From Methyloligella sp. (GTDB lineage: Bacteria > Pseudomonadota > Alphaproteobacteria > Rhizobiales > HXMU1428-3), in NCBI GenBank assembly GCA_021604645.1, contig BQJJ01000002.1, forward strand, positions 310,001 through 374,000: a stretch of DNA of 64,000 nucleotides, given 5' to 3'. This document shows positions 1,971 to 61,081 of the stretch, piece by piece (position 1 is the first letter of the stretch; every line of letters begins with the position of its first letter). The notes beneath the pieces were generated by a model. That model saw nothing but the letters and a program-made list of their open reading frames with translations. It was not told the origin of the DNA and searched no databases. The translations under genes and the position numbers were made by a program.

Positions 1971-2000
1971 GACGGTTGCTGGTGGGCAACTGAAGGAACA
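1971..2000 (+). repeat. R hairpin repeat, copy 1 (supplies the aroQ ribosome site)
   Basis: The arms are GTTGC and GCAAC around TGGTGG, followed by TGAAGGA. It matches copies at 12937, 28397, 45096, 53052 and 53121. The AAGGA of its tail lies 8 nt before the aroQ ATG and appears to be that gene's Shine-Dalgarno sequence. Confidence 0.75.
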
Positions 2001-2005
2001 CTATT

Positions 2006-2446
2006 ATGTCAAAACCAATTTATGTCCTCAGTGGCCCAAATCTGAATATGCTGGGCCAAAGAGAACCAGAAATTTACGGGTCTCAAACTTTGGATGATAT
2101 TCATAAATCCTTAAGTGAAAGGGGAGCAAAGCACGGCAAAGATGTGAAGTGCTTTCAATCCAATCATGAAGGGCAATTAGTCGATATTATTCAAGAAGCA
2201 GGCAATAAAGCATCTGGTTTAATTATTAATGCTGGCGCTCTAACTCACACATCTGTTGCAATAGCAGATGCGATAAGAGCCATTGACATTCCCGCAATAG
2301 AAGTCCACATGTCTAACGTTTACCAAAGAGAGGAATTTAGGCATCATTCCTATTTATCTCCCGTGGTAATTGGTCTAATTTGTGGGTTTGGATCGCAATC
2401 CTATGAATTGGCGCTTGATGTTCTCGTAACTGACGCGCAAAAATAG
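2006..2446 (+). CDS. aroQ: 3-dehydroquinate dehydratase, type II
   Basis: This enzyme dehydrates 3-dehydroquinate to 3-dehydroshikimate in aromatic amino-acid biosynthesis. Its 146 residues match the usual length of the small dodecameric type II enzyme. Visible signatures are the N-terminal GPNLNMLGQREPEIYG with the active-site Tyr, NHEGQLVD, and INAGALTHTSVAIADAI. A Leu-Ser-Pro segment close to the C-terminal substrate loop is also present. The start has an AAGGA site at the proper distance, contributed by an upstream repeat. It precedes accB-accC in the order usual for Rhizobiales. Confidence 0.95.
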   Translation: MSKPIYVLSGPNLNMLGQREPEIYGSQTLDDIHKSLSERGAKHGKDVKCFQSNHEGQLVDIIQEAGNKASGLIINAGALTHTSVAIADAIRAIDIPAIEVHMSNVYQREEFRHHSYLSPVVIGLICGFGSQSYELALDVLVTDAQK

Positions 2447-11000: not shown

Positions 11001-11772
11001 ACCTCATCGCCGCAAAGGCTATACACAAAAAGCCGTGGTCGGTGGCCACAAAGTATATCTAAGAACTGGTGAATATGAAGATGGTCGCTTAGGTGAAATT
11101 TTCATCGATATGCATAAAGAAGGTGCTGCCTTCCGTTCATTGATGAATAACTTCGCCATCGCTATCTCGTTAGGCCTTCAATATGGTGTACCACTGGAAG
11201 AGTTTGTTGAAGCCTTTACATTCACGCGCTTTGAACCAGCTGGATTTGTGCAAGGTAATGACTCAATTAAAAACGCAACGTCAATCCTTGACTACATCTT
11301 CCGCGAACTCGGTGTCTCTTATCTAGCTCGTCATGATCTAGCTCACGTTGACCCAAGTGAAATTGGCGCAGTCTCAACTGCAATGGGCCGCGGCGAAGAT
11401 GAAGACGAAAAAGACACCAGCGCCGAGCGTTTCCTAAGTCGTGGTCTTTTAAGAGGTACATTCAACAAGGCAAAGGTCGTTGAGAAGAAGTCTACCGCCG
11501 AAAAACAACAATCAGGGCTTCAATCCAACACAGTCGCTGAATTGCAGCAAGTCGTTAATTCAGGCTTAAGTGCTGGTGAAACAACTCTCGTTGCAAACGG
11601 AGATCCAGTTGCCTCCACGCAAACCCTTGGTAGCAAAGCTGAGTTGATGGCTGAAGCCAGAGTAAAAGGCTATGAAGGTGAAAACTGCGCTGAATGCGGT
11701 AACTTCACGCTCGTTCGCAACGGCACCTGCCTAAAATGCGACACCTGCGGCTCAACAAGCGGTTGTTCATAA
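8071..11772 (+). CDS. nrdJ: Vitamin B12-dependent (class II) ribonucleoside-diphosphate reductase
   Basis: This adenosylcobalamin-dependent enzyme reduces ribonucleotides to deoxyribonucleotides with or without oxygen. I chose the ATG at 8071, giving [15 protein letters not shown], which matches how the rhizobial proteins begin; an ATG 12 codons earlier is in frame but poorly placed. GAGGG lies 10 nt before this start. The protein has 1233 residues. Landmarks are [11 protein letters not shown] with a substrate-site Cys, [17 protein letters not shown], the catalytic NPCSEYMF followed by CNLASLNL, and [12 protein letters not shown]. The C-terminal Cys-rich tail has CAECGNFT and [14 protein letters not shown], which would shuttle electrons from thioredoxin. 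Confidence 0.95.
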
Positions 11773-11801
11773 AACTAACAGCTTATACTAAAAACGCTAA
11801 T

Positions 11802-11846
11802 CGCCACCCAAAACAAAATTCTGTTTTGGGTGGCGTTAATCTTTTA
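11802..11846 (+). terminator. Probable terminator of nrdJ
   Basis: A perfect 14-bp stem, CGCCACCCAAAACA with TGTTTTGGGTGGCG, encloses AAATTC. The downstream T stretch is short and interrupted (TTAATCTTTT), so termination may be partial. Confidence 0.75.
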
Positions 11847-11878
11847 TGGACATTTCAAACTCAGATAAATAGCGTCCA

Positions 11879-11937
11879 GCGCACAAGATCAGCCTGAACA
11901 GAGCGCTGCGAGTACAAATCAGCTGACCACAAAAAAG
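11879..11937 (+). repeat. M2 module, copy 1 (about 60 nt)
   Basis: It starts GCGCACAAGATCAGCC and ends GCTGACCACAAAAAAG. It aligns along its whole length with 45142-45201 inside the modified Q element. GATCAGC pairs with the later GCTGACC with one mismatch here, and perfectly in the other copy. Confidence 0.65.
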
Positions 11938-11972
11938 TACCGCACCTACATGAGAAACACATACCTTCTAAT

Positions 11973-12090
11973 ACGAAGAAGGAGTGACGCCACTTCGGCG
12001 TCAAGACATGGCAGCACAGTAGCCCGGCGCCTAGCGCCGCCGCCCCTCGGAGGGCCGCAGCTTCGCTGCGGAATAACCCGTGAGAGAGAA
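11973..12090 (+). repeat. Q multi-hairpin element, copy 1
   Basis: About 118 nt without a coding role. Hairpin 1 is TGACGCC with GGCGTCA at 11985-12003. GACATGGCA follows, then a weak hairpin 2. Hairpin 3 is GGCGC-CTA-GCGCC at 12026-12038. CCCCTCGGAG comes next, then hairpin 4, CCGCAGC with GCTGCGG, at 12055-12071, and the closing GTGAGAGA. The same order of fixed blocks and variable stems recurs at 28272, 45050 and 60954. It lies between nrdJ and the gene at 12293; the remaining bases of that gap hold the nrdJ terminator and the M2 module. Confidence 0.75.
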
Positions 12091-12292
12091 AACTGTGAAT
12101 GCTTTTTCCATAGTTTCTCCACAGGCTTTTGATTCGCTCTAGAATCTGTGTAATATTCAGTAATACAAAGCGCGGCACCTTATTAGCCCTTCAAAATTAA
12201 GCACTCAAATGAGACTTGAGATTGGGATGTCTAATGATGAACTTTAAAATTTGAGCTATTAAATCTTAGCTACTAAATCAAAGGGCACAATA

Positions 12293-12904
12293 ATGGCAAT
12301 TGATGAACAATTGCAGTCACTTGTTTATTTCCTGACAGACCATCTTTTTGCAGCAATGGAAGCAGGCGAACGTATTCGCATGGCCACATTCACGCAACCA
12401 GAAAATCTTGGTGAACTTTCAGGTGATGATATCATGCAAGAGATTGAACAATTGCGCCTGTTTATTTCCGATCTATCAGATTGGGAAGAAGAAATGGTCT
12501 CAAAGCTCATTCAAGCCCGCAAATGGAGCAATCATTTACGAGAGCATGATGCTTTTTTCAAACCTTTAATTGACCTTTTTAATAGTGCAACACATCCACT
12601 ATCAGACATAGCCGCTCAAATTAGTGATCATCATGACCGCCATTTTGAAGGGGGTGACCATCCTGATTGGTTCATAAATTCAAGAGAAATTCTCACAGAA
12701 AAATCAGCGCACGGGCAAATCTTAGCCTTAACAACAGGGCCGATGTATCTTGTAGGCGGTCATGTCCGTTTAGGCAATATCACAGAACTTTCTGAAAGTT
12801 ACTTAAGTGCACTTGAGACTAGGTTCCCGCATCTCTGGCTCCCTGCTGAAGACGTATTAATGGACGCCGAAGCTGAAACAGAAAAAAACATCTCTTTTGA
12901 GTAA
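12293..12904 (+). CDS. Conserved hypothetical protein, mostly helical
   Basis: I do not recognise a named family in this 203-residue protein. It is acidic, lacks a signal peptide or membrane segment, and is predicted by eye to be largely alpha-helical in the first two thirds. That part includes a Trp-Glu-Glu-Glu stretch near residue 63 and ARKWSNHLREHDAFF near 74. A Gly-rich turn (TTGPMYLVGGHVRLGN) follows near residues 146-161. Codon use resembles the neighbouring housekeeping genes, and an AAGGGC site precedes the ATG, so I consider it a real gene. It is flanked by repeats on both sides. Confidence 0.7.
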   Translation: MAIDEQLQSLVYFLTDHLFAAMEAGERIRMATFTQPENLGELSGDDIMQEIEQLRLFISDLSDWEEEMVSKLIQARKWSNHLREHDAFFKPLIDLFNSATHPLSDIAAQISDHHDRHFEGGDHPDWFINSREILTEKSAHGQILALTTGPMYLVGGHVRLGNITELSESYLSALETRFPHLWLPAEDVLMDAEAETEKNISFE

Positions 12905-12936
12905 CCACCGTTTTGGTAAACCACCAAAGAAATTTC

Positions 12937-12964
12937 CCGGTTGCTAGTGGGCAACTGAAGGGCA
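12937..12964 (+). repeat. R hairpin repeat, copy 2
   Basis: GTTGC and GCAAC around TAGTGG, then TGAAGGGCA. It lies between two converging genes, so here it cannot serve as a ribosome site. Confidence 0.7.
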
Positions 12965-12972
12965 AAAATGTC

Positions 12973-13749
12973 TTAATCAAAACTAAGTGGCTTTAACTCA
13001 GTACTGTCACAATCTTCTTCAAAGTCTTTCTCTTCGCGCTTTAGTTCAGCAACAAATTCAAGACAAACCTGATCAAGCTGTTCTTCATCAACACCGCGCA
13101 AAACAATCACAGTCCCAACCTTGCCCAATTTAAAATAAGGGTAACTACCAAGACTTATCCCTTCATTTTCGTCATCAAGCTTACCAATTAACGGAGCAAC
13201 AGTGCTTTCTGGATGCCTGATAATAAAGGTACGAGAAAGCAAGCGCCGGCCAGTTCGCAATTTTGGCGTCACATCATCAAGCATCACTTGCATAATTTTT
13301 GGCACACCTGCCATAACAATTACATTCTCAATCATAAAACCAGGGGCGCCTGAAACAGAATTTTTAATCAACTCACCGCCATCAGGAATACGCGCCATCA
13401 ATCGTCGCCCCTCGCTTAACTCTTCGCCTGGGTAGCGCGCCTGCATAATCGCAATAGCTTGCCTATTCTCAAGCAACTCAACACCAACCGCTTTTGCAAC
13501 ACTCTGCGCCGTGATGTCATCATGTGTCGGGCCAATACCACCAGTTGTAAACACATAGTCATAAGAGCTACGCAAAACATTTAGCGCATCAACTATCCGG
13601 TCCTCTTTATCAGAGACAACTCGCACTTCTTCAAGGCGAATACCCACTGCCGTGCAATGGTTCGCTAAATAATTAATATTTTTATCACTTGTACGACCAG
13701 ATAAAATCTCATCGCCAATCACTAGAAGTGCGGCTGTAACATCTTTCAT
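12973..13749 (-). CDS. CinA-like / MoCF-domain molybdopterin-binding protein
   Basis: This 258-residue protein has the MoCF_biosynth fold of CinA and MoaB: LLVIGDEILSGRTSDKN at the N-terminus, FTTGGIGPTHDD near residue 68, and SGAPGFMIENVIVMAGVPKIM near 131-151. It stops before the nicotinamide-nucleotide amidohydrolase domain of full-length CinA. That short form is usual in Rhizobiales and is often called competence/damage-inducible protein A. Family members hydrolyse ADP-ribose-type or damaged nucleotides, but the precise reaction here is unknown. It is divergent from sfsA and converges on the hypothetical gene upstream. Confidence 0.85.
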   Translation of the reverse strand: MKDVTAALLVIGDEILSGRTSDKNINYLANHCTAVGIRLEEVRVVSDKEDRIVDALNVLRSSYDYVFTTGGIGPTHDDITAQSVAKAVGVELLENRQAIAIMQARYPGEELSEGRRLMARIPDGGELIKNSVSGAPGFMIENVIVMAGVPKIMQVMLDDVTPKLRTGRRLLSRTFIIRHPESTVAPLIGKLDDENEGISLGSYPYFKLGKVGTVIVLRGVDEEQLDQVCLEFVAELKREEKDFEEDCDSTELKPLSFD

Positions 13750-13886
13750 AATTTATTCCACTAATCTTTAAGAGGTATTACACTGTTAGAAGCTGATATT
13801 TAATGTATGAATTCAACCTAGGTTACGTCAATATATTCCATTAATTATAGTGTGAACTTAACCCTAAAACTCTCAACGGAACACCC

Positions 13887-14606
13887 ATGAAATTTCCAAA
13901 TCCCTTAATCAAGGGAACTTTAATCAAACGCTATAAAAGGTTCTTAGCAGATGTAACCCTTGAAAATGGCGAAGAAGTTACAGCCCACTGCGCAAACCCT
14001 GGCGCAATGCTTGGTTTAAAAGAGCCCGGTTCAACCGTTTGGTTATCACCAGCCACAAACCCAAAACGAAAACTTAAATATTCATGGGAGCTGATAGAGA
14101 CCAATGATTTTAATAAAAAAACACTGGTCGGTATCAATACAAGCCTACCAAACAAACTAGCTGAAGAGGCCATACAAGACGGCACAATTAAAGAACTACA
14201 GGGCTATGAAACCTTACGCCGTGAAGTAAAATATGGCCAAAACAGCCGCATCGATATCTTACTAGATAACTCAGAATGTGATGAGAAAAAATGCTATGTT
14301 GAAATCAAAAATGTTCACCTTCTGAGAGAAAAAGACTTATGTGAATTCCCAGATAGTGTGACAACACGAGGCGCAAAACATTTAAAAGAGCTTAGTGATA
14401 TGGTAGCTGCTGGTCACCGCGCCGTCATGCTTTACCTGATCCAAAGAGAAGATTGTAACTCATTCAATCTCGCAGCTGATATAGATACGGCCTACAATGA
14501 AGCTTTCCAAAAAGCTATTGATGCAGGCGTTGAAGCCATTGCCTATAAATGCAAACTCACAACAACAGAGATTAATGTCACAAAGCCTGTCGTTTTTAGG
14601 GGCTAA
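13887..14606 (+). CDS. sfsA: SfsA family DNA/RNA-binding nuclease-like protein
   Basis: The 239-residue protein carries the family marks FPNPLIKGTLIKRYKRFLAD, with HCANPGAM near residue 34, REVKYGQNSRIDIL near 111, CYVEIKNVHLL near 136, and FPDSVTTRGAKHL. SfsA was named for sugar-fermentation stimulation in E. coli. Its C-terminal half has a PD-(D/E)xK-like nuclease core (here the ID, VEIKN elements), but a cellular role is not firmly known. In alphaproteobacteria it commonly precedes map, as it does here. Confidence 0.92.
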   Translation: MKFPNPLIKGTLIKRYKRFLADVTLENGEEVTAHCANPGAMLGLKEPGSTVWLSPATNPKRKLKYSWELIETNDFNKKTLVGINTSLPNKLAEEAIQDGTIKELQGYETLRREVKYGQNSRIDILLDNSECDEKKCYVEIKNVHLLREKDLCEFPDSVTTRGAKHLKELSDMVAAGHRAVMLYLIQREDCNSFNLAADIDTAYNEAFQKAIDAGVEAIAYKCKLTTTEINVTKPVVFRG

Positions 14607-14633
14607 ACTCAATGAATAAAGGAGGTTAAATAG

Positions 14634-14774
14634 ATGATCAATTTAGCCGCCTTTTGGCCGAAAGAGCGTGAATTCTACATAAAAAACATTAGCTATAGCT
14701 GTATTCCCTGTGATTTTTCTATGGATGTAGATAATTTTAGCTCCACAGGTGTCACAATGGGGCTAAATTTTTAA
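14634..14774 (+). CDS. Candidate 46-residue small protein
   Basis: A consensus AGGAGG lies 8 nt before an ATG that opens 46 codons and ends in TAA. The product begins MINLAAFWPKEREFY and contains CIPC near residue 23. No family is recognised. It occupies the gap between sfsA and map and could be translated with the sfsA transcript. CAATTTAGCC near its start is nearly the inverse of GGCTAAATTT at its end, so the segment could alternatively be a structured RNA. The strong ribosome site is the main support; conservation is untested. Confidence 0.4.
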   Translation: MINLAAFWPKEREFYIKNISYSCIPCDFSMDVDNFSSTGVTMGLNF

Positions 14775-14917
14775 ATTGGGTTTAGACCCTAGTTAATATT
14801 ATCAATTATAGTATAAATGAACTCAATTAAGCGACGAAAATTGACTTCATAAGTCTCAATTAACATGCCAAAATGAGCAAAAATTAAATCATTGCCTCTC
14901 TAAAACGGAATACCTTA

Positions 14918-15712
14918 ATGAACAGACATCGCCCTATCATCCCAATCCATAAACCTGCAGACTATGAGGGAATGCGCAAAGCTGGCCAACTAGCAGCTGC
15001 AGCATTGGACATGTTAGTTGAGGAAGCAAAACCTGGTATCACAACAGCTCACTTGGATAAGCTGGCTTTTGAGTTCGCAATGGATAACAACGCACTCCCC
15101 GCAACCCTTCATTATCGCGGTTATAAATATTCAATTTGCACATCAATCAATCATGTTGTCTGTCATGGCATGCCAAATAACAAACCTCTTAAAAAGGGAA
15201 GCATCCTAAACATTGATGTCACCCTGATTTTAGATGGCTGGCACGGAGACACAAGCCGAACAATTCCAATCGGAGATATTCCAACTAAAGCCGCCAGACT
15301 AATGGACATCACCTATAACGCTCTTTTTAAGGGCATTGAAGTTGTCCGCCCTGGCGCCACAACAGGCGATATCGGCCACGCCATTCAAGCTTATGGTGAA
15401 AGCGAGCGCTGCTCTATCGTAACAGATTTTTGCGGCCATGGACTTGGCCGACAGTTTCACACACCACCAAACATCTTGCATTACGGAAAACCAGGTGAAG
15501 GTGTAACCTTGGAAGAAGGGATGTTCTTCACCATTGAACCAATGCTTAATTTAGGACGACCAAACGTAAAAGTCCTTGCTGATGGTTGGACCGCTGTTAC
15601 CAAAGACAAATCACTTTCAGCTCAATTTGAACATTCCATCGCTGTGACAAAAGACGGCTATGAAATTTTCACCCTTTCTCCAGGTGGTTGGCAACATCAG
15701 TTTAGAAAGTAA
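14918..15712 (+). CDS. map: Methionine aminopeptidase, type I
   Basis: It removes the initiator Met from nascent proteins using a two-metal centre. The 264-residue sequence has the type Ia pattern, with SINHVVCHGMPN near residue 76, and the metal ligands in NIDVTLILDGWHGDTSRT (two Asp). The later His and Glu lie in CGHGLGRQFH and FTIEPMLNLG, and the last Glu in AQFEHSIAVT. All five metal ligands are therefore visible. radC follows 38 nt downstream, an arrangement common in rhizobia. Confidence 0.96.
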   Translation: MNRHRPIIPIHKPADYEGMRKAGQLAAAALDMLVEEAKPGITTAHLDKLAFEFAMDNNALPATLHYRGYKYSICTSINHVVCHGMPNNKPLKKGSILNIDVTLILDGWHGDTSRTIPIGDIPTKAARLMDITYNALFKGIEVVRPGATTGDIGHAIQAYGESERCSIVTDFCGHGLGRQFHTPPNILHYGKPGEGVTLEEGMFFTIEPMLNLGRPNVKVLADGWTAVTKDKSLSAQFEHSIAVTKDGYEIFTLSPGGWQHQFRK

Positions 15713-15750
15713 GTCATAAAGAGCTAATCATGGGGAAACAAAGTTAAATA

Positions 15751-16449
15751 ATGGGTGAATTTGAAGACAGTCAAAGCGGGCCTCATTACAAGGGACACAG
15801 AACAAGACTGCGCCAGCGTTTCTTAAAAGCGGGCCCAGATGCTATGCCCGATTATGAATTATTAGAAATGATCCTGTTTCGCGCCATTCCAAGACGAGAT
15901 ACCAAACCACTAGCCAAAGAACTCTTACACAAGTTTGGAGATTTCGCTGAAGTTTTAAATGCCCCAGAGGCAAGACTAAAAGAAGTCAAAGGCGTCGGAG
16001 ATGCTGTTGTCACAGAAATTAAACTGATCAAAGCTACATCGCTGCGCCTCATGCAAGCCAACCTCGAGAAAAAAGAAATCATCGGTTCTTGGTCTGCTAT
16101 GGTCCGTTATGTATGCGCCGCAATGGCCCACGAACAACGAGAACAATTCCGTATCATTTTTCTTGATAAACGCAATCAGGTCATAGCTGATGAAATACAA
16201 GCTGAAGGCACTGTTGACCACACACCTGTTTATGTAAGAGAAGTTGTCCGCCGCGCCCTTGAAGTTGGCGCGACCGCTATCATCCTTGCTCACAATCACC
16301 CCTCTGGTGACCCAACGCCTTCAAGAGCTGATATATCAATGACCAAACAAATCATGGAAGCTCTTGATAAAATAGGAATTTTAGTCCACGACCACATCAT
16401 CGTAGGACGAGATGGTCATGCAAGTTTAAAAGAACTACAACTTATTTAG
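15751..16449 (+). CDS. radC: RadC/UPF0758 family JAMM-domain protein
   Basis: The 232-residue protein has an N-terminal helix-hairpin-helix region ([18 protein letters not shown], then [17 protein letters not shown]) and a C-terminal MPN/JAMM domain. The zinc motif is [15 protein letters not shown] near residue 180. The family was once linked to DNA repair, but a role in RecA repair has been disputed and its substrate is unknown. It follows map closely and converges on prfH with only 24 nt between stops. Confidence 0.92.
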
Positions 16450-16473
16450 TAAAACTAATTCCACAAAAAATTT

Positions 16474-17115
16474 TCATTTCTTTATTTCTTTAAATTTCGC
16501 ACCTTTAAAACAACGAACCGGATTGCCCCGCTCTAACGTCTTATGTAGCTGAAAGATTTGTTTGTTTTCATTACTTTGCCTTTGAAGAGACTTGAGGAAA
16601 AACACATCACTCAACCTCTCAATCGCAAGTTTTTTATTACGGTGCTGTGAACGACCATCCCGGCAAACAGCAGAAATCCCAGAAGGTAAATGAGTGACAC
16701 GCACAGCACTATCCGTCGTATTTTGATGTTGCCCTCCAGGACCGCCAGCTCGAAAACTATCAAACTTTAAATCTGAAGGTTTGATTTCAAGTGAAATGAC
16801 ATCCGCATCCTTGAGCAAAAAAACACCAACGAACCAGTTCTGCCGTCTATGGTTTGAGCGAAACGGACTAGGACAAACCCACTTAATGGTGCCTAACCAC
16901 TGCTGAGAAAATTCAGCACTCCCCTCACCTAAAACAGTGATGAGAGCAGAAGAAGAAACCCCATCTTCTGAAGTTTCATCAAAAGCGGTCGAAACTGTCA
17001 AACCACTTTCCCTAGCTTCCGAAAGCATTTCTTTAATAACCAAAGAGACGGCACGCTTGCATTCAGCTGGCCCAGTACCGCTACTGACTAAAAGTTTTAT
17101 ATGTTCAGCTTTCAT
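16474..17115 (-). CDS. prfH: Peptide chain release factor homologue PrfH
   Basis: This 213-residue protein has the GGQ loop ([20 protein letters not shown] near residue 122) needed for peptidyl-tRNA hydrolysis but lacks the codon-recognition domain of RF1/RF2. PrfH has been reported to release peptides from ribosomes broken at the decoding centre of 16S rRNA, after which the partner RtcB ligase reseals the break. The start codon overlaps the end of rtcB by 4 nt, so the two are translationally coupled, which supports that joint role. The C-terminal tail is Lys-rich, as expected for ribosome binding. Confidence 0.93.
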
Positions 17116-18386
17116 AGTCGCCCCCTTCTCTTTCTAGAAGGTTTCCAACTCTTTTTTATTGTTTTTTCAAGCTCTTTATTGGCTTTCTTAAATGTCAAAA
17201 GAGGTTTTAGAGACAATAGGGGCGTAACGAGTTGAGCATCAACCAAATCACTCAATACGGCTTCTGAGTTTTTATAAGCACTAGGAGCTTCCTCAACTAA
17301 AAGCTGCTTATCTTCACAAACAACATGACCACCAAACGACGTGCGCTGTAATTTATTAAGCTCAGATTTATTGCGCCCAACCCGTCCCTTCATTGATTTA
17401 CGGTCATACTTTCGACCAGAGCCATGAGCTAATGAGAATAATGATTGCTCTTTCAAATCAAGATCATCTGTTGGTTTCACCAAATAACTCAACGCATCGC
17501 GCGATCCAGCGATCGGCACAACAGGTAAATCCGCCTTTGCCGCTCCTTTGCGATGAAGAAACTTTTCGCCATACCGCTCAACAAGATTATGAGGGCAATC
17601 AATATGTAGCTTACAATTGCCCTGCAAAGCATGCGCAGCACGCTCCGCAATAATCTGTCGGTTCAATGAAGCCCAGCGGACAGCACCATCATGTAAATTG
17701 AGATAGGTTTCCAGCTCATCACAGTCAGAAATCAACCCTTCAGAAAAAAACTCTTGCACCGTTTGAAAAACAGACATTCCAAATCCACGAGATCCAGAAT
17801 GAACAAACAAAAGTGCCTGTCTTTTATCAATGTTTAACTGATCAAGAACACTCGTTTCAAAGACATTACCAATCGCTTGAACTTCACAAAAGTGATTACC
17901 CCCGCCAATAGTCCCTAAACTATGCAAAAACAAATCATGTTTTTTTGCTAATTCTAGTAAGCCATAACGGTTAAGTCGCGAAGATAGCTCCTCATCAAAA
18001 GGAGGTTGTATATCTCCTTCCTCAAAAAAAGCTCCCTCCAACTGCTTCAGTTTTTGCGCACACTTTTCTAGTTTTAACTTACGCACATCAATATCAAGCG
18101 CGAACAAGCTCATACCACAGCCGATATCATTTCCAATCAAATGCGGATAGACACGGTCAGCTAAAATTGAAACACCAACAGGACCATATTTCCCGGGATG
18201 CAAATCCGGAAATGCAGCAATCTGCTGAACACCTTTTTTACGAGTAAGGTCTGTTAATTGTTCAGTTGCTCCTTCCTCAATCCAGGAGAGAGCCGAATAA
18301 AAATTATATGATAACGCATCACAGCTACTCTCGCTTTCATCAAGAAAGTCAGAAGCGCGCACGCCATTATTAAGAGAAATGCCCAT
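17112..18386 (-). CDS. rtcB: RNA-splicing ligase RtcB, PrfH-associated type
   Basis: RtcB joins a 2',3'-cyclic or 3'-phosphate RNA end to a 5'-OH end using GTP and Mn2+. The 424-residue protein shows [13 protein letters not shown] near residue 60, GNDIGCGMS near 89, [12 protein letters not shown] near 158, VHSGSRGFG near 195, and AHGSGR near 321, whose His is the expected guanylylated residue. The pairing with prfH marks it as the ribosome-repair branch, not the tRNA-splicing branch. Its ribosome site reads AAGGTGATCC, an extended match to the 16S 3' end. It is probably preceded by a structured leader with a short ORF. Confidence 0.93.
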
Positions 18387-28271: not shown

Positions 28272-28390
28272 ACACGATGAAGGAGCATTGCCTTCTTCAG
28301 GCAATGGGACATGGCAGCGCCAGCTGACCGGTGCCTAGTACCGCCTCTCGGAGTGCCCGCCGCTTCAGCGGCGGAATAGCACGTGAGAGA
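28272..28390 (+). repeat. Q multi-hairpin element, copy 2
   Basis: The order of parts is as in the copy at 11973: GATGAAGGAG; hairpin 1, ATTGCC with GGCAAT; GACATGGCA; hairpin 2, CAGC-GCCA-GCTG; hairpin 3, GGTGC-CTA-GTACC with one G-T pair; TCTCGGAG; hairpin 4, CCGCCGC with GCGGCGG; and GTGAGAGA. Arm sequences differ from other copies, but pairing is kept. Confidence 0.75.
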
Positions 28391-28396
28391 AAAAAT

Positions 28397-28426
28397 GCGG
28401 TTGCTGGTGGGCAACCCTGAAGCACA
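28397..28426 (+). repeat. R hairpin repeat, copy 3
   Basis: GGTTGC and GCAACC around TGGTGG, then CTGAAGCACA. It abuts the 3' side of the Q element at 28272-28390. An outer TGC/GCA pair extends the stem. Confidence 0.7.
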
Positions 28427-45095: not shown

Positions 45096-45127
45096 GTGCT
45101 GTTGCTTGTGGGCAATCTGAAGCACAG
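45096..45127 (+). repeat. R hairpin repeat, copy 4
   Basis: GTGC, then GTTGC-TTGTGG-GCAAT, CTGAA and GCAC: an inner stem plus an outer GTGC/GCAC stem with an asymmetric CTGAA bulge. It lies within hairpin 2 of the Q element. Confidence 0.7.
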
Positions 45128-52422: not shown

Positions 52423-53049
52423 ATGGAACACTCATTGCAAAACAATAAAGACAAAAGAAACAAAAGGGTTTGGAATTTACCAAACATCCTAACCTACGGC
52501 CGGATTGTTGCAGTCCCGGCCTTTGTTGCCTGTTTTTACTTCACGGGAGATGTCCCAAGAGCCATCGCTCTTGGCCTGTTTATCGCTGCCAGCGTAACTG
52601 ATTTTCTAGATGGTTACTTAGCCAGAGCCTGGTCACAACAATCAAAGCTTGGCCAAATGCTAGACCCGATTGCAGATAAGTTATTAGTCGGCGCGGCTCT
52701 CATCATGCTTGTCTATGACAGAACAATCTACGATCTATCCGTCGTTGCAGCTGTCATCATCCTAAGTCGAGAAATTCTGGTATCCGGTTTAAGAGAGTTT
52801 CTAGGTCAATTATCAGTCAGCGTTCCTGTCACACAAATTGCAAAATTCAAAACAGCCGCTCAACTATGTGCATTAGGTTTCTTAATCATGGCACCACTTG
52901 TTGGCAATATGTTCGGCCAGGATGGCTCAATCATTTTAGTCTTGGGAGATAGCTTACTATGGTGCGCCGCCATTTTAACAATCTATACAGGCTTTGATTA
53001 TTTACGTGTTGGTATAAAATACCTCATTGAAGAAGACATGAAAGATTAA
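52423..53049 (+). CDS. pgsA: CDP-diacylglycerol--glycerol-3-phosphate 3-phosphatidyltransferase
   Basis: It makes phosphatidylglycerophosphate, the precursor of phosphatidylglycerol and cardiolipin. The 208-residue membrane protein starts WNLPNILTYGRIVAVPAF and has the CDP-alcohol motif DFLDGYLARAWSQQSKLGQ with the following MLDPIADK, giving the spaced Asp ligands. About five membrane segments are visible. The order uvrC-pgsA-moaD-moaE is widespread in Rhizobiales. Confidence 0.95.
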   Translation: MEHSLQNNKDKRNKRVWNLPNILTYGRIVAVPAFVACFYFTGDVPRAIALGLFIAASVTDFLDGYLARAWSQQSKLGQMLDPIADKLLVGAALIMLVYDRTIYDLSVVAAVIILSREILVSGLREFLGQLSVSVPVTQIAKFKTAAQLCALGFLIMAPLVGNMFGQDGSIILVLGDSLLWCAAILTIYTGFDYLRVGIKYLIEEDMKD

Positions 53050-53051
53050 AC

Positions 53052-53085
53052 GACGGTTGCTTGTGGGCAACTTGAAGGAGCATCT
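53052..53085 (+). repeat. R hairpin repeat, copy 5
   Basis: GACGGTTGC, TTGTGG, GCAAC, then TTGAAGGAGCATCT. It starts 3 nt after the pgsA stop codon and is complete and unbroken. Confidence 0.75.
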
Positions 53086-53092
53086 AAAAAGA

Positions 53093-53200
53093 GACGGTTG
53101 CTATTTACGGATGCTTTGTGCCGGTTGCTAGTGGGCAACTGAAGGCACATTAAAAAGAGCATCTGAAAACACACTAAAGAAAGCAACCTGAAGGAGTATC
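53093..53200 (+). repeat. Three R repeats nested inside one another
   Basis: The outer copy is split: GACGGTTGCT at 53093-53102, and AGCAACC plus TGAAGGAG from 53182. Within it lies a second split copy: CGGATGCTTTGTG at 53108-53120, and GCATC plus TGAAAACACA from 53159. Within that lies an intact copy at 53121-53150 (CCGGTTGC, TAGTGG, GCAAC, TGAAGGCACA). Each inner copy sits at the loop of the copy around it. The outer copy's AAGGAG is the nearest ribosome-site candidate for moaD, at 12 nt. Confidence 0.75.
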
Positions 53201-53208
53201 TAAATAGA

Positions 53209-53460
53209 ATGAAAATTTTATATTTTGCGTGGGTCCGAGAAAAAATTGGGAAATCACAAGAAGACCTTGATGTTCCAAATTCTGTAAACACCGTCGCTGA
53301 TTTAATTACATGGCTAGAGTCCAAAGGACCTGAATATCAAGCTGCCTTTGAAAATAAAGAAACCATTAACTCAGCCATTAATCAAACGCACGTTGACCAT
53401 CAAACACCGCTTAACAACGCCAGTGAAATTGCCTTTTTCCCACCTGTAACAGGCGGCTAA
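53209..53460 (+). CDS. moaD: Molybdopterin synthase small subunit
   Basis: The 83-residue ubiquitin-like protein begins MKILYFAWVREKIGKSQEDL and ends in VTGG, whose terminal Gly becomes the thiocarboxylate that donates sulfur to precursor Z. Its partner MoaE is 13 nt downstream. The gap to pgsA is filled with R repeats, one of which may supply its ribosome site. Confidence 0.93.
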   Translation: MKILYFAWVREKIGKSQEDLDVPNSVNTVADLITWLESKGPEYQAAFENKETINSAINQTHVDHQTPLNNASEIAFFPPVTGG

Positions 53461-60953: not shown

Positions 60954-61070
60954 TACCGAAGAAGGTAGTGCTCTTCTTAGAGCACGCACATGACGCCTCT
61001 GGCGTCCGGCACCTAGTGCCGCCCCTCGGAGGCTCAAACGCGATAGCGTTTGAAATAGCCGTGAGAGAAA
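60954..61070 (+). repeat. Q multi-hairpin element, copy 4
   Basis: Order of parts: CCGAAGAAGG; hairpin 1, GTGCTCT-TCTT-AGAGCAC; CACATG; hairpin 2, GACGCC-TCT-GGCGTC; hairpin 3, GGCAC-CTA-GTGCC; CCCCTCGGAG; hairpin 4, CAAACGC with GCGTTTG; then GAAATAGCCGTGAGAGA. All four stems pair perfectly although their sequences differ from the other copies. It lies between the converging kinase and proC genes. Confidence 0.8.
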
Positions 61071-61081
61071 ACAAGCCCGCC

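Follow-up and report, generated by a model that had tools for sequence, protein, structure and literature searches.

A REP-like hairpin repeat nested in its own loops and oriented with replication in Methyloligella

The spread of small palindromic repeats without a transposase is an open question, and the CGTC-tagged REPs are a published example of it. In the available excerpts of their description (PMC3733652, BMC Genomics 2013), these are small, mostly alphaproteobacterial palindromes, apparently devoid of a dedicated transposase, with (i) stems of 8–9 bp starting with AT pairs, (ii) loops of 4–5 bp, (iii) CCA tails and (iv) a mostly head-to-head dimeric arrangement. The tandem REP arrays of Pseudomonas fluorescens SBW25, as excerpted from PMC3116915, run forward around 2 Mb and in reverse around 4 Mb, a hint that their orientation is tied to the side of the chromosome. 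Transposition in the IS200/IS605 family (IS608) acts on hairpins and on the lagging-strand template (PMC6006769, excerpt). Palindromes inserted in palindromes are described from the organelle genomes of Volvox (PMC2670323, excerpt), and among the GC clusters of yeast mitochondria GC42 shows merger and presence/absence variation (PMC4478555, excerpt). For bacteria, and leaving aside the arrays of PMC3116915, the matches listed from the open-licence literature contain neither self-nesting in loops nor a polarity of such repeats with respect to replication.

The window analysed here, a whole stretch of 64,000 nucleotides from Methyloligella sp. (contig BQJJ01000002.1, positions 310,001 to 374,000, forward strand), carries a short hairpin repeat, R. 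Its loops are empty in one genome and filled in another, its link with replication is strict, and no Y1 transposase gene is visible in most of the genomes rich in it, which makes its spread a testable question about single-stranded DNA at the replication fork.

The nested array between pgsA and moaD

On the + strand, the stop of pgsA (52423–53049) at 53049 and the start of moaD (53209–53460) at 53209 enclose a gap that, read directly, is filled by a solitary R and a nested array. Both gene names come from the initial annotation; pgsA is matched in each of 41 genomes (41 of 41), in part by weaker paralogues. The solitary unit (53052–53092, + strand) reads GAC, GGTTGC(TTGTGG)GCAAC, TTGAA and a tail, GGAGCATCTAAAAAGA; its hairpin including TGAA occupies 53055–53076, just 5' of the array.

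Within the array (53093–53200, + strand), an intact innermost R occupies the loop of a second, which in turn occupies that of a third R. The outermost host has the arms GGTTGC (53096–53101) and GCAACC (53183–53188), the latter followed by TGAA at 53189–53192, so that 3' arm and TGAA together take up 53183–53192. The middle host, counted as the pair GGATGC/GCATC, has its arms at 53109–53114 and 53159–53163 and its TGAA at 53164–53167 (3' arm with TGAA, 53159–53167). Both hosts are split within the loop and each retains its TGAA. The inner R is complete (53123–53143) and has an additional lower stem, GTGCC (53118–53122) with GGCAC (53144–53148); the whole, 53118–53148, consists of this lower stem enclosing the hairpin GGTTGCTAGTGGGCAAC, with TGAA as a bulge. 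The A-rich tail of the inner unit (ATTAAAAAGA, 53149–53158) resembles the tails of many other copies. All these parts are on the + strand and, apart from the tail, which is read from sequence, they are supported by sequence and folding alike.

As RNA, the 108-nt array folds at −37.0 kcal/mol against −21.7 for shuffled sequences (z −5.05; 0 of 200 shuffles as good), and as DNA it also exceeds shuffles on the + strand (z −4.2) and the − strand (z −3.1). Taken by itself, the solitary R has no folding advantage over shuffled sequences (z −0.35), and the case for it is therefore its repetition. The three-level nesting described in the initial annotation is confirmed by direct reading and folding; its further statements, that the splits fall at the loop and leave arms and TGAA intact and that another whole copy stands just upstream at 53052, hold for the middle and outer hosts and for the hairpin at 53055–53076, respectively. 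The string GAAGGAG at the 3' arm of the outermost R ends 12 nt 5' of the moaD ATG.

By pattern search, other R hairpins of the window lie at 1974–1990, 12939–12955 and 28399–28415 (the last with orthologue arms CGATGC/GCATC in congener G002), and a diverged one with two mismatches lies at 45100–45116, all on the + strand. In total the window holds five exact R hairpins, all on the + strand, and 11 matches at up to three mismatches, against 5.2 by chance. A known RNA family was considered and rejected, the window having no Rfam match above the gathering score.

Structure, distribution and orientation of the R family

A strict R pattern matches 140 times in the 3.57 Mb genome of the window (G000), and the reversed-pattern control not once. 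Of the seven congeners, G002 has 150 matches, G003 121, G006 111 and G007 43, and the other three have 6, 1 and 0; 33 further genomes of the same order have 0–2 each, with 0 or 1 per genome in the control. Exact R is found, among the matches listed, in the Hyphomicrobiales MAGs OFTM288, OFTM213 and HXMU1428-3 and in a MAG named Rhodomicrobium sp. DHS20C08; these matches may not include the records of the window itself. R is a REP-like, high-copy family whose presence varies between congeners, as the initial annotation's idea of a mobile unit leads one to expect; within the genomes searched, and as far as that search reaches, it is a repeat of one genus-level group of Hyphomicrobiales.

The main sample for structure and nesting comprises 424 copies, taken from 2.88 Mb of DNA. 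In the stem, 337 of these have T-A at the W position and 87 have A-T; the G of TGC forms a G-C pair in 385 and gives way to T-A in 34. Since the search rule imposed the hairpin pairs and not the lower stem, the lower stem is a fair test of structure: its positions 2–4 are paired in 325, 307 and 321 of the 424 copies, against 184, 168 and 166 with shuffled partners. The commonest flank pairs among 113 copies are GCGC/GCGC (15), CGAC/GGAG (11) and GTGC/GCAC (10). The R unit, about 38–45 nt long, consists of a lower stem of about 4 bp in several subtypes, a hairpin GGWTGC-(TnGTGG)-GCAWCC, the bulged TGAA and an A-rich tail; on the complementary strand, TTCA stands at the 5' foot of the hairpin. 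Copies are extragenic except for 11 of 105 sampled, which fall inside a mechanical ORF call of at least 100 aa.

The CGAC subtype ends in GAAGGAG or GAAGGAA (window 1974–2010 and 53189–53209; G000:C3 near 298142), and four sampled copies of it stand 11–16 nt 5' of a same-strand mechanical gene start. From this placement shortly before gene starts, R of the CGAC subtype may be a source of ribosome-binding sites.

Polarity was measured by the codon-3 skew per gene strand, averaged over the two strands so that gene orientation cancels; genes were mechanical ORFs of at least 100 aa, and tiles on contigs C5–C20 were picked where R was already known. Copies were scorable where the tile skew reached at least 0.05, that is 145 (GC) and 157 (TA) of the 192 copies in tiles. 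For 135 of the 145 (135:10), the R strand that carries TGAA is the one with negative GC skew, and for 146 of the 157 (146:11) it is the one with negative TA skew. For G000 alone the ratios are 89:4 (GC) and 100:5 (TA); the part contributed by G002, 46:6, stems from a single contig of uniform skew sign and therefore counts as a single domain. Both signs occur in G000, where C3, C4, C5, C12 and C20 are positive and ten other sampled contigs negative, and R flips accordingly. The one-sided orientation per contig is visible in the 100 listed of the 140 strict copies. Raw tile skew in G000 gives 54:22 for GC and 106:4 for TA, the GC figure being weaker because the raw GC skew of several contigs is flat or positive, although their TA skew is clear. 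Among the control words, CTTCAG (692:744) and GCTGGTGG (48:48) are unbiased, and GGGNAGGG has the opposite bias (18:40, P 0.005).

By the usual convention, the leading strand is the one richer in G and T. This convention puts R on the lagging-sense strand, and the lagging-strand template then carries its complement, 5'-TTCA-hairpin. The orientation of R follows replication, a property that the initial annotation had not noticed.

Gene context was counted for 83 lagging-sense copies in gaps of at least 40 bp. Gaps of the types co/co, co/anti, anti/co and anti/anti hold 40, 19, 4 and 20 copies, against 23.0, 10.7, 22.4 and 26.9 expected from length (chi-square 35.9, P 8e-8); R avoids divergent gaps (4 against 22.4 expected) and is placed 3' of genes on its own strand.

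In C1, C6, C7, C9 and C15 of G000 the raw GC skew is about zero or positive and the TA and codon-3 skews are negative, an unusual uncoupling. A second repeat, Q, of ∼150 nt with several hairpins (ACGAAGAAGGAG...GGACATG...CCTCGGAGG...ATAGCCGTGAGAGA), occurs in the window at 61006–61074 and ∼28360–28390 and in many places of G000 and G002, has no Rfam match in the window, occasionally contains R within its hairpins, and is oriented to replication in the way R is (50:2 and 52:2).

Self-nesting and the occupancy of loops

R stands between paired R arms of the same orientation in 33 of 424 copies, against 8.4 with permuted downstream flanks (sd 2.7, maximum 18 in 200 permutations), and inside an inverted R host in 0 of the 424. 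The pattern behind this count is looser and admits some chance hairpins; loci L001–L040, L121–L129 and L225–L227 are omitted, identical contexts are dropped, and 75 MAG loci, chosen for exact R among the matches listed, are included. By eye, about six of the 33 cases are doubtful (G0C2 175768, G0C4 91613, L219 3147, L234, L238 17719 and L186). Under the strictest rule, an unselected contiguous sample has 3 of 105 copies nested, against 0.26 under uniform intergenic insertion (P 0.0025). Other rules give 8 of 113 against 2.0 permuted, and 14 and 26 of 283 against 2.8 and 8.8; the 283-copy set includes a few loci picked by nested-query similarity or by pgsA (L002–L008 less two, L012–L017), and its counts therefore lean towards nesting. 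A scan of split positions in this set, which served for reading boundaries, has a modest excess (48 of 283 against 27–42 in ten permutations; inside the loop, 39 against 22–37). Concordance of A/T between host arms reaches P 0.04 with only 16 usable cases. The ends of the nested unit vary from case to case, and no consistent target duplication is apparent. Nesting is general but affects a minority of copies, 391 of the 424 (>90%) not being scored within an R loop.

Loops of other hairpins also receive R: Q repeats at G000:C1:132319 and G002:C1:137877, and RIME-like palindromes at G000:C2:109644 and 287765. The hairpin AAGTGGATACnGGTTTT, an R host here, resembles the RIME-type palindromes of rhizobia. 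Stems enclosing R are little commoner than permuted flanks provide: among 113 copies, helices of at least 7 bp number 9 against 5.7, and of at least 9 bp 2 against 0.25. Duplex energy and longest helix around R give a weak excess or none, the largest being 3.5% against 0.4% at −20 kcal/mol with short flanks. A general preference for hairpin loops was accordingly rejected and retained as a minority effect only; the enclosing-stem excess being small, loops are favoured by R, not required. The loop preference put forward in the initial annotation thus survives for R loops and those of other hairpins, and falls short as a rule for the family, given the 391 copies outside R loops and an enclosing-stem excess barely above the permuted value.

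Among relatives, the empty, singly occupied and doubly occupied states that the initial annotation proposed to compare are all seen. The pgsA–moaD gap is 3–5 nt in G001, G003, G004 and G007, and filled in G000, G002 and G006. The loop of the solitary R at 53055 is empty in G000; in G002 it carries another R, and the host arms change from GTTGC/GCAAC to GTTAC/GTAAC. At G000:C2:175764 the loop of a solitary R, TTGTG|GGCATC, is empty; its counterpart in G002 has a two-level insert of ∼70 nt with GTG on both sides, followed by further R copies. The stem-loop at G000:C2:332388 has an empty 6-nt loop, which in G002 (L114) is filled by an R-carrying RIME-like palindrome. At G000:C2:102785 both genomes have an occupied host loop, but the R subtype in it differs between them, and some nested copies are common to both, for example G000:C4 near 251410 and L240 of G002. 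As to target duplications, one of the few filled loops inspected has GTG on both sides, and others lack it. A tally of orthologous sites by R number alone takes in loose chance matches and is given no weight.

Change of R sites on the genus time scale is real, but any one of these differences may have run either way: an empty site may be the product of a deletion, and at one filled site the GTG...GTG would permit loss by slippage. Insertion is read here from the comparison of genomes.

In some orthologous copies both arms are exchanged together (GGTTGC/GCAAC against GGATGC/GCATC or similar), as at G000:C2:338399 and 379861 and between G000:C3:178862 and L175, a pattern that suggests conversion between copies or strand-switch correction.

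Routes of movement and relation to known repeats

The initial annotation invoked a Y1/HUH transposase (RAYT), and genes of this kind were looked for. G000 has two Y1 genes (PF01797) and is the only one of the eight genomes of the genus with a match; there is none in the seven congeners (7 of 7), four of which carry 43–150 strict R copies. Both genes match NF047646, the REP-associated tyrosine transposase, both are flanked by AATTACGGTGACAGT and its complement, a palindrome distinct from R, and both lie within a 100-kb stretch that has no R by the rule used. With no Y1 match in the congeners, and a palindrome of their own and R-free surroundings in G000, the RAYTs were rejected as mobiliser of R: a gene of the proposed type does exist, and it is not associated with the repeat. 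The reverse transcriptase profile PF00078 has no match in G000, G001, G002, G003, G005 and G007 and one each in G006 and G004 (2 of 8 genomes); a reverse-transcribed element was rejected on its absence from G000 and R-rich G002. An IS91-type Y2 enzyme (PF04986) was rejected likewise, with a fragmentary match of 31 profile positions in G000 and none in the seven congeners. The evidence speaks against a resident RAYT and against a reverse transcriptase as the enzyme of R.

On the RAYT stretch itself, L041 (G000:C1) has at 11339–17262 two RAYT genes and the cut-off 5' end of a third, each near AATTACGGTGACAGT; genes and palindrome are a separate small REP-like system in G000. The first 100 kb of contig 1 (G000:C1:1–100000), which have no R by the rule used and also carry these genes, may be a recently acquired island.

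We consider it probable, though far from assured, that R is a short REP-like non-coding mobile hairpin that enters the single-stranded lagging-strand template, loops included. Copies would enter this single-stranded DNA at the fork, where the entry would fix their orientation, and hairpin loops, which would stay single-stranded, would be good targets. Entry into the lagging-strand template would cover the polarity, the loop targets and the same-orientation nesting together. Because insertion in a loop leaves the host hairpin foldable, arrays can grow without loss of older copies; this agrees with the initial annotation, host arms staying paired around inserted R, and gives a repeat a way to accumulate without breaking what it has already laid down. 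Candidate routes would be a nuclease or transposase that has escaped recognition, or the incorporation of single-stranded fragments, protected by their hairpins, during lagging-strand synthesis of the host, so that the route is possibly transposase-free. Short-patch double illegitimate recombination is a possible model, a phrase that does not appear among the matches listed from the open-licence literature. A bolder and rather doubtful version holds that R needs no transposase at all: host lagging-strand synthesis would paste hairpin-protected single strands into template loops, the fork would be the mobiliser, self-nesting would be the natural outcome and the Q repeat would represent another family that spreads in this way.

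The main rival is selection for orientation, by which R would insert without polarity and the other orientation would be lost, R having a directional role as a fork-orienting signal, a transcript 3'-end or a translation element. The polarity could thus be selected rather than derived from insertion, and the preference for sites 3' of co-oriented genes, the avoidance of divergent gaps and the equal polarity of the unrelated Q repeat (50:2 and 52:2) all point that way. Even so, we judge it unlikely: polarity is not simply that of the gene strand, 24 of 105 copies lying between two opposite-strand genes, and R is never inverted in R loops (0 of 424), although a directional signal could explain this too. 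Less likely again is local template switching with slippage between near-identical arms, which would make nested arrays without insertion from elsewhere. The two-sided arm changes from GGTTGC/GCAAC to GGATGC/GCATC and the swapped inner types in orthologues fit it; local slippage nevertheless leaves the more than 100 dispersed copies and the filling of an unrelated stem-loop unexplained, the fills in a congener are complete units of a different subtype, lower stem and tail included, and the predicted excess of orphan 3' halves of R is not borne out, with 41 3' against 119 5' halves (0 and 23 in the reversed-sequence control). Least likely, and very improbable, is a MITE-like R carried as a passenger by a DDE or other IS-encoded transposase: dispersal and presence/absence variation would be expected of it, but the few clean pairs lack the signature of terminal repeats with a fixed target duplication and, to our knowledge, MITE-like elements usually have no replication polarity, which counts against this reading.

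The classical REP/RAYT route, in which R would be cut out and pasted in single-stranded form by a Y1 HUH transposase whose gene is lost or too diverged in the relatives, is improbable to much the same degree as template switching. A Y1 enzyme specific for single strands would be expected to produce both the polarity and the preference for hairpins, lagging-strand targeting is described for IS200/IS605 members (Quentin et al., PMC6006769, excerpt), and G000 does have its two NF047646 genes. Against this, G002, G003, G006 and G007 lack PF01797 despite 150, 121, 111 and 43 R copies and completeness of 99, 78, 96 and 94%, the RAYTs of G000 have their own palindrome and lie on a contig whose first 100 kb are free of R, and the common R forms have no GT[AG]G foot.

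Lagging-strand entry remains the reading we prefer. R can be set beside several described repeats. The CGTC-tagged REPs may share with R the lack of a transposase, which for R is based on searches for Y1 (seven congeners), reverse transcriptase (G000, G002) and Y2. In sequence the two differ: R has a GGWTGC stem, a TGAA bulge, an A-rich tail and uniform orientation; its stem begins GG/CC by the search rule, so that the AT first and second pairs of the CGTC REPs are unmatched; and the CGTC string itself occurs only in the minority CGAC subtype (CGAC/GGAG, 11 of 113, and a few more with other tails). The short palindromic repeats of Volvox and the GC clusters of yeast are, like R, selfish hairpins; they differ in being organellar, and the excerpts of PMC2670323 and PMC4478555 give no link with replication direction and no loop rule. 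The RIME-type palindrome is longer, has another sequence and is only a host here. IS200/IS605 elements need a Y1 transposase, which was not found in the R-rich congeners; their ends, like REPs and R, are hairpins tied to single-stranded DNA. With REP, BIME and REPIN elements R shares short imperfect palindromes in more than 100 copies, extragenic placement and unpaired bases at one foot of the hairpin. REPs with a RAYT differ in their GT[AG]G foot and in a cognate RAYT, none being flanked by R. Unlike REPINs and BIMEs, R does not form inverted pairs; it forms head-to-tail arrays with a polarity of 135:10 and an inverted nested count of 0 in 424. Genome-wide replication polarity and nesting in its own loops also separate R from REPs.
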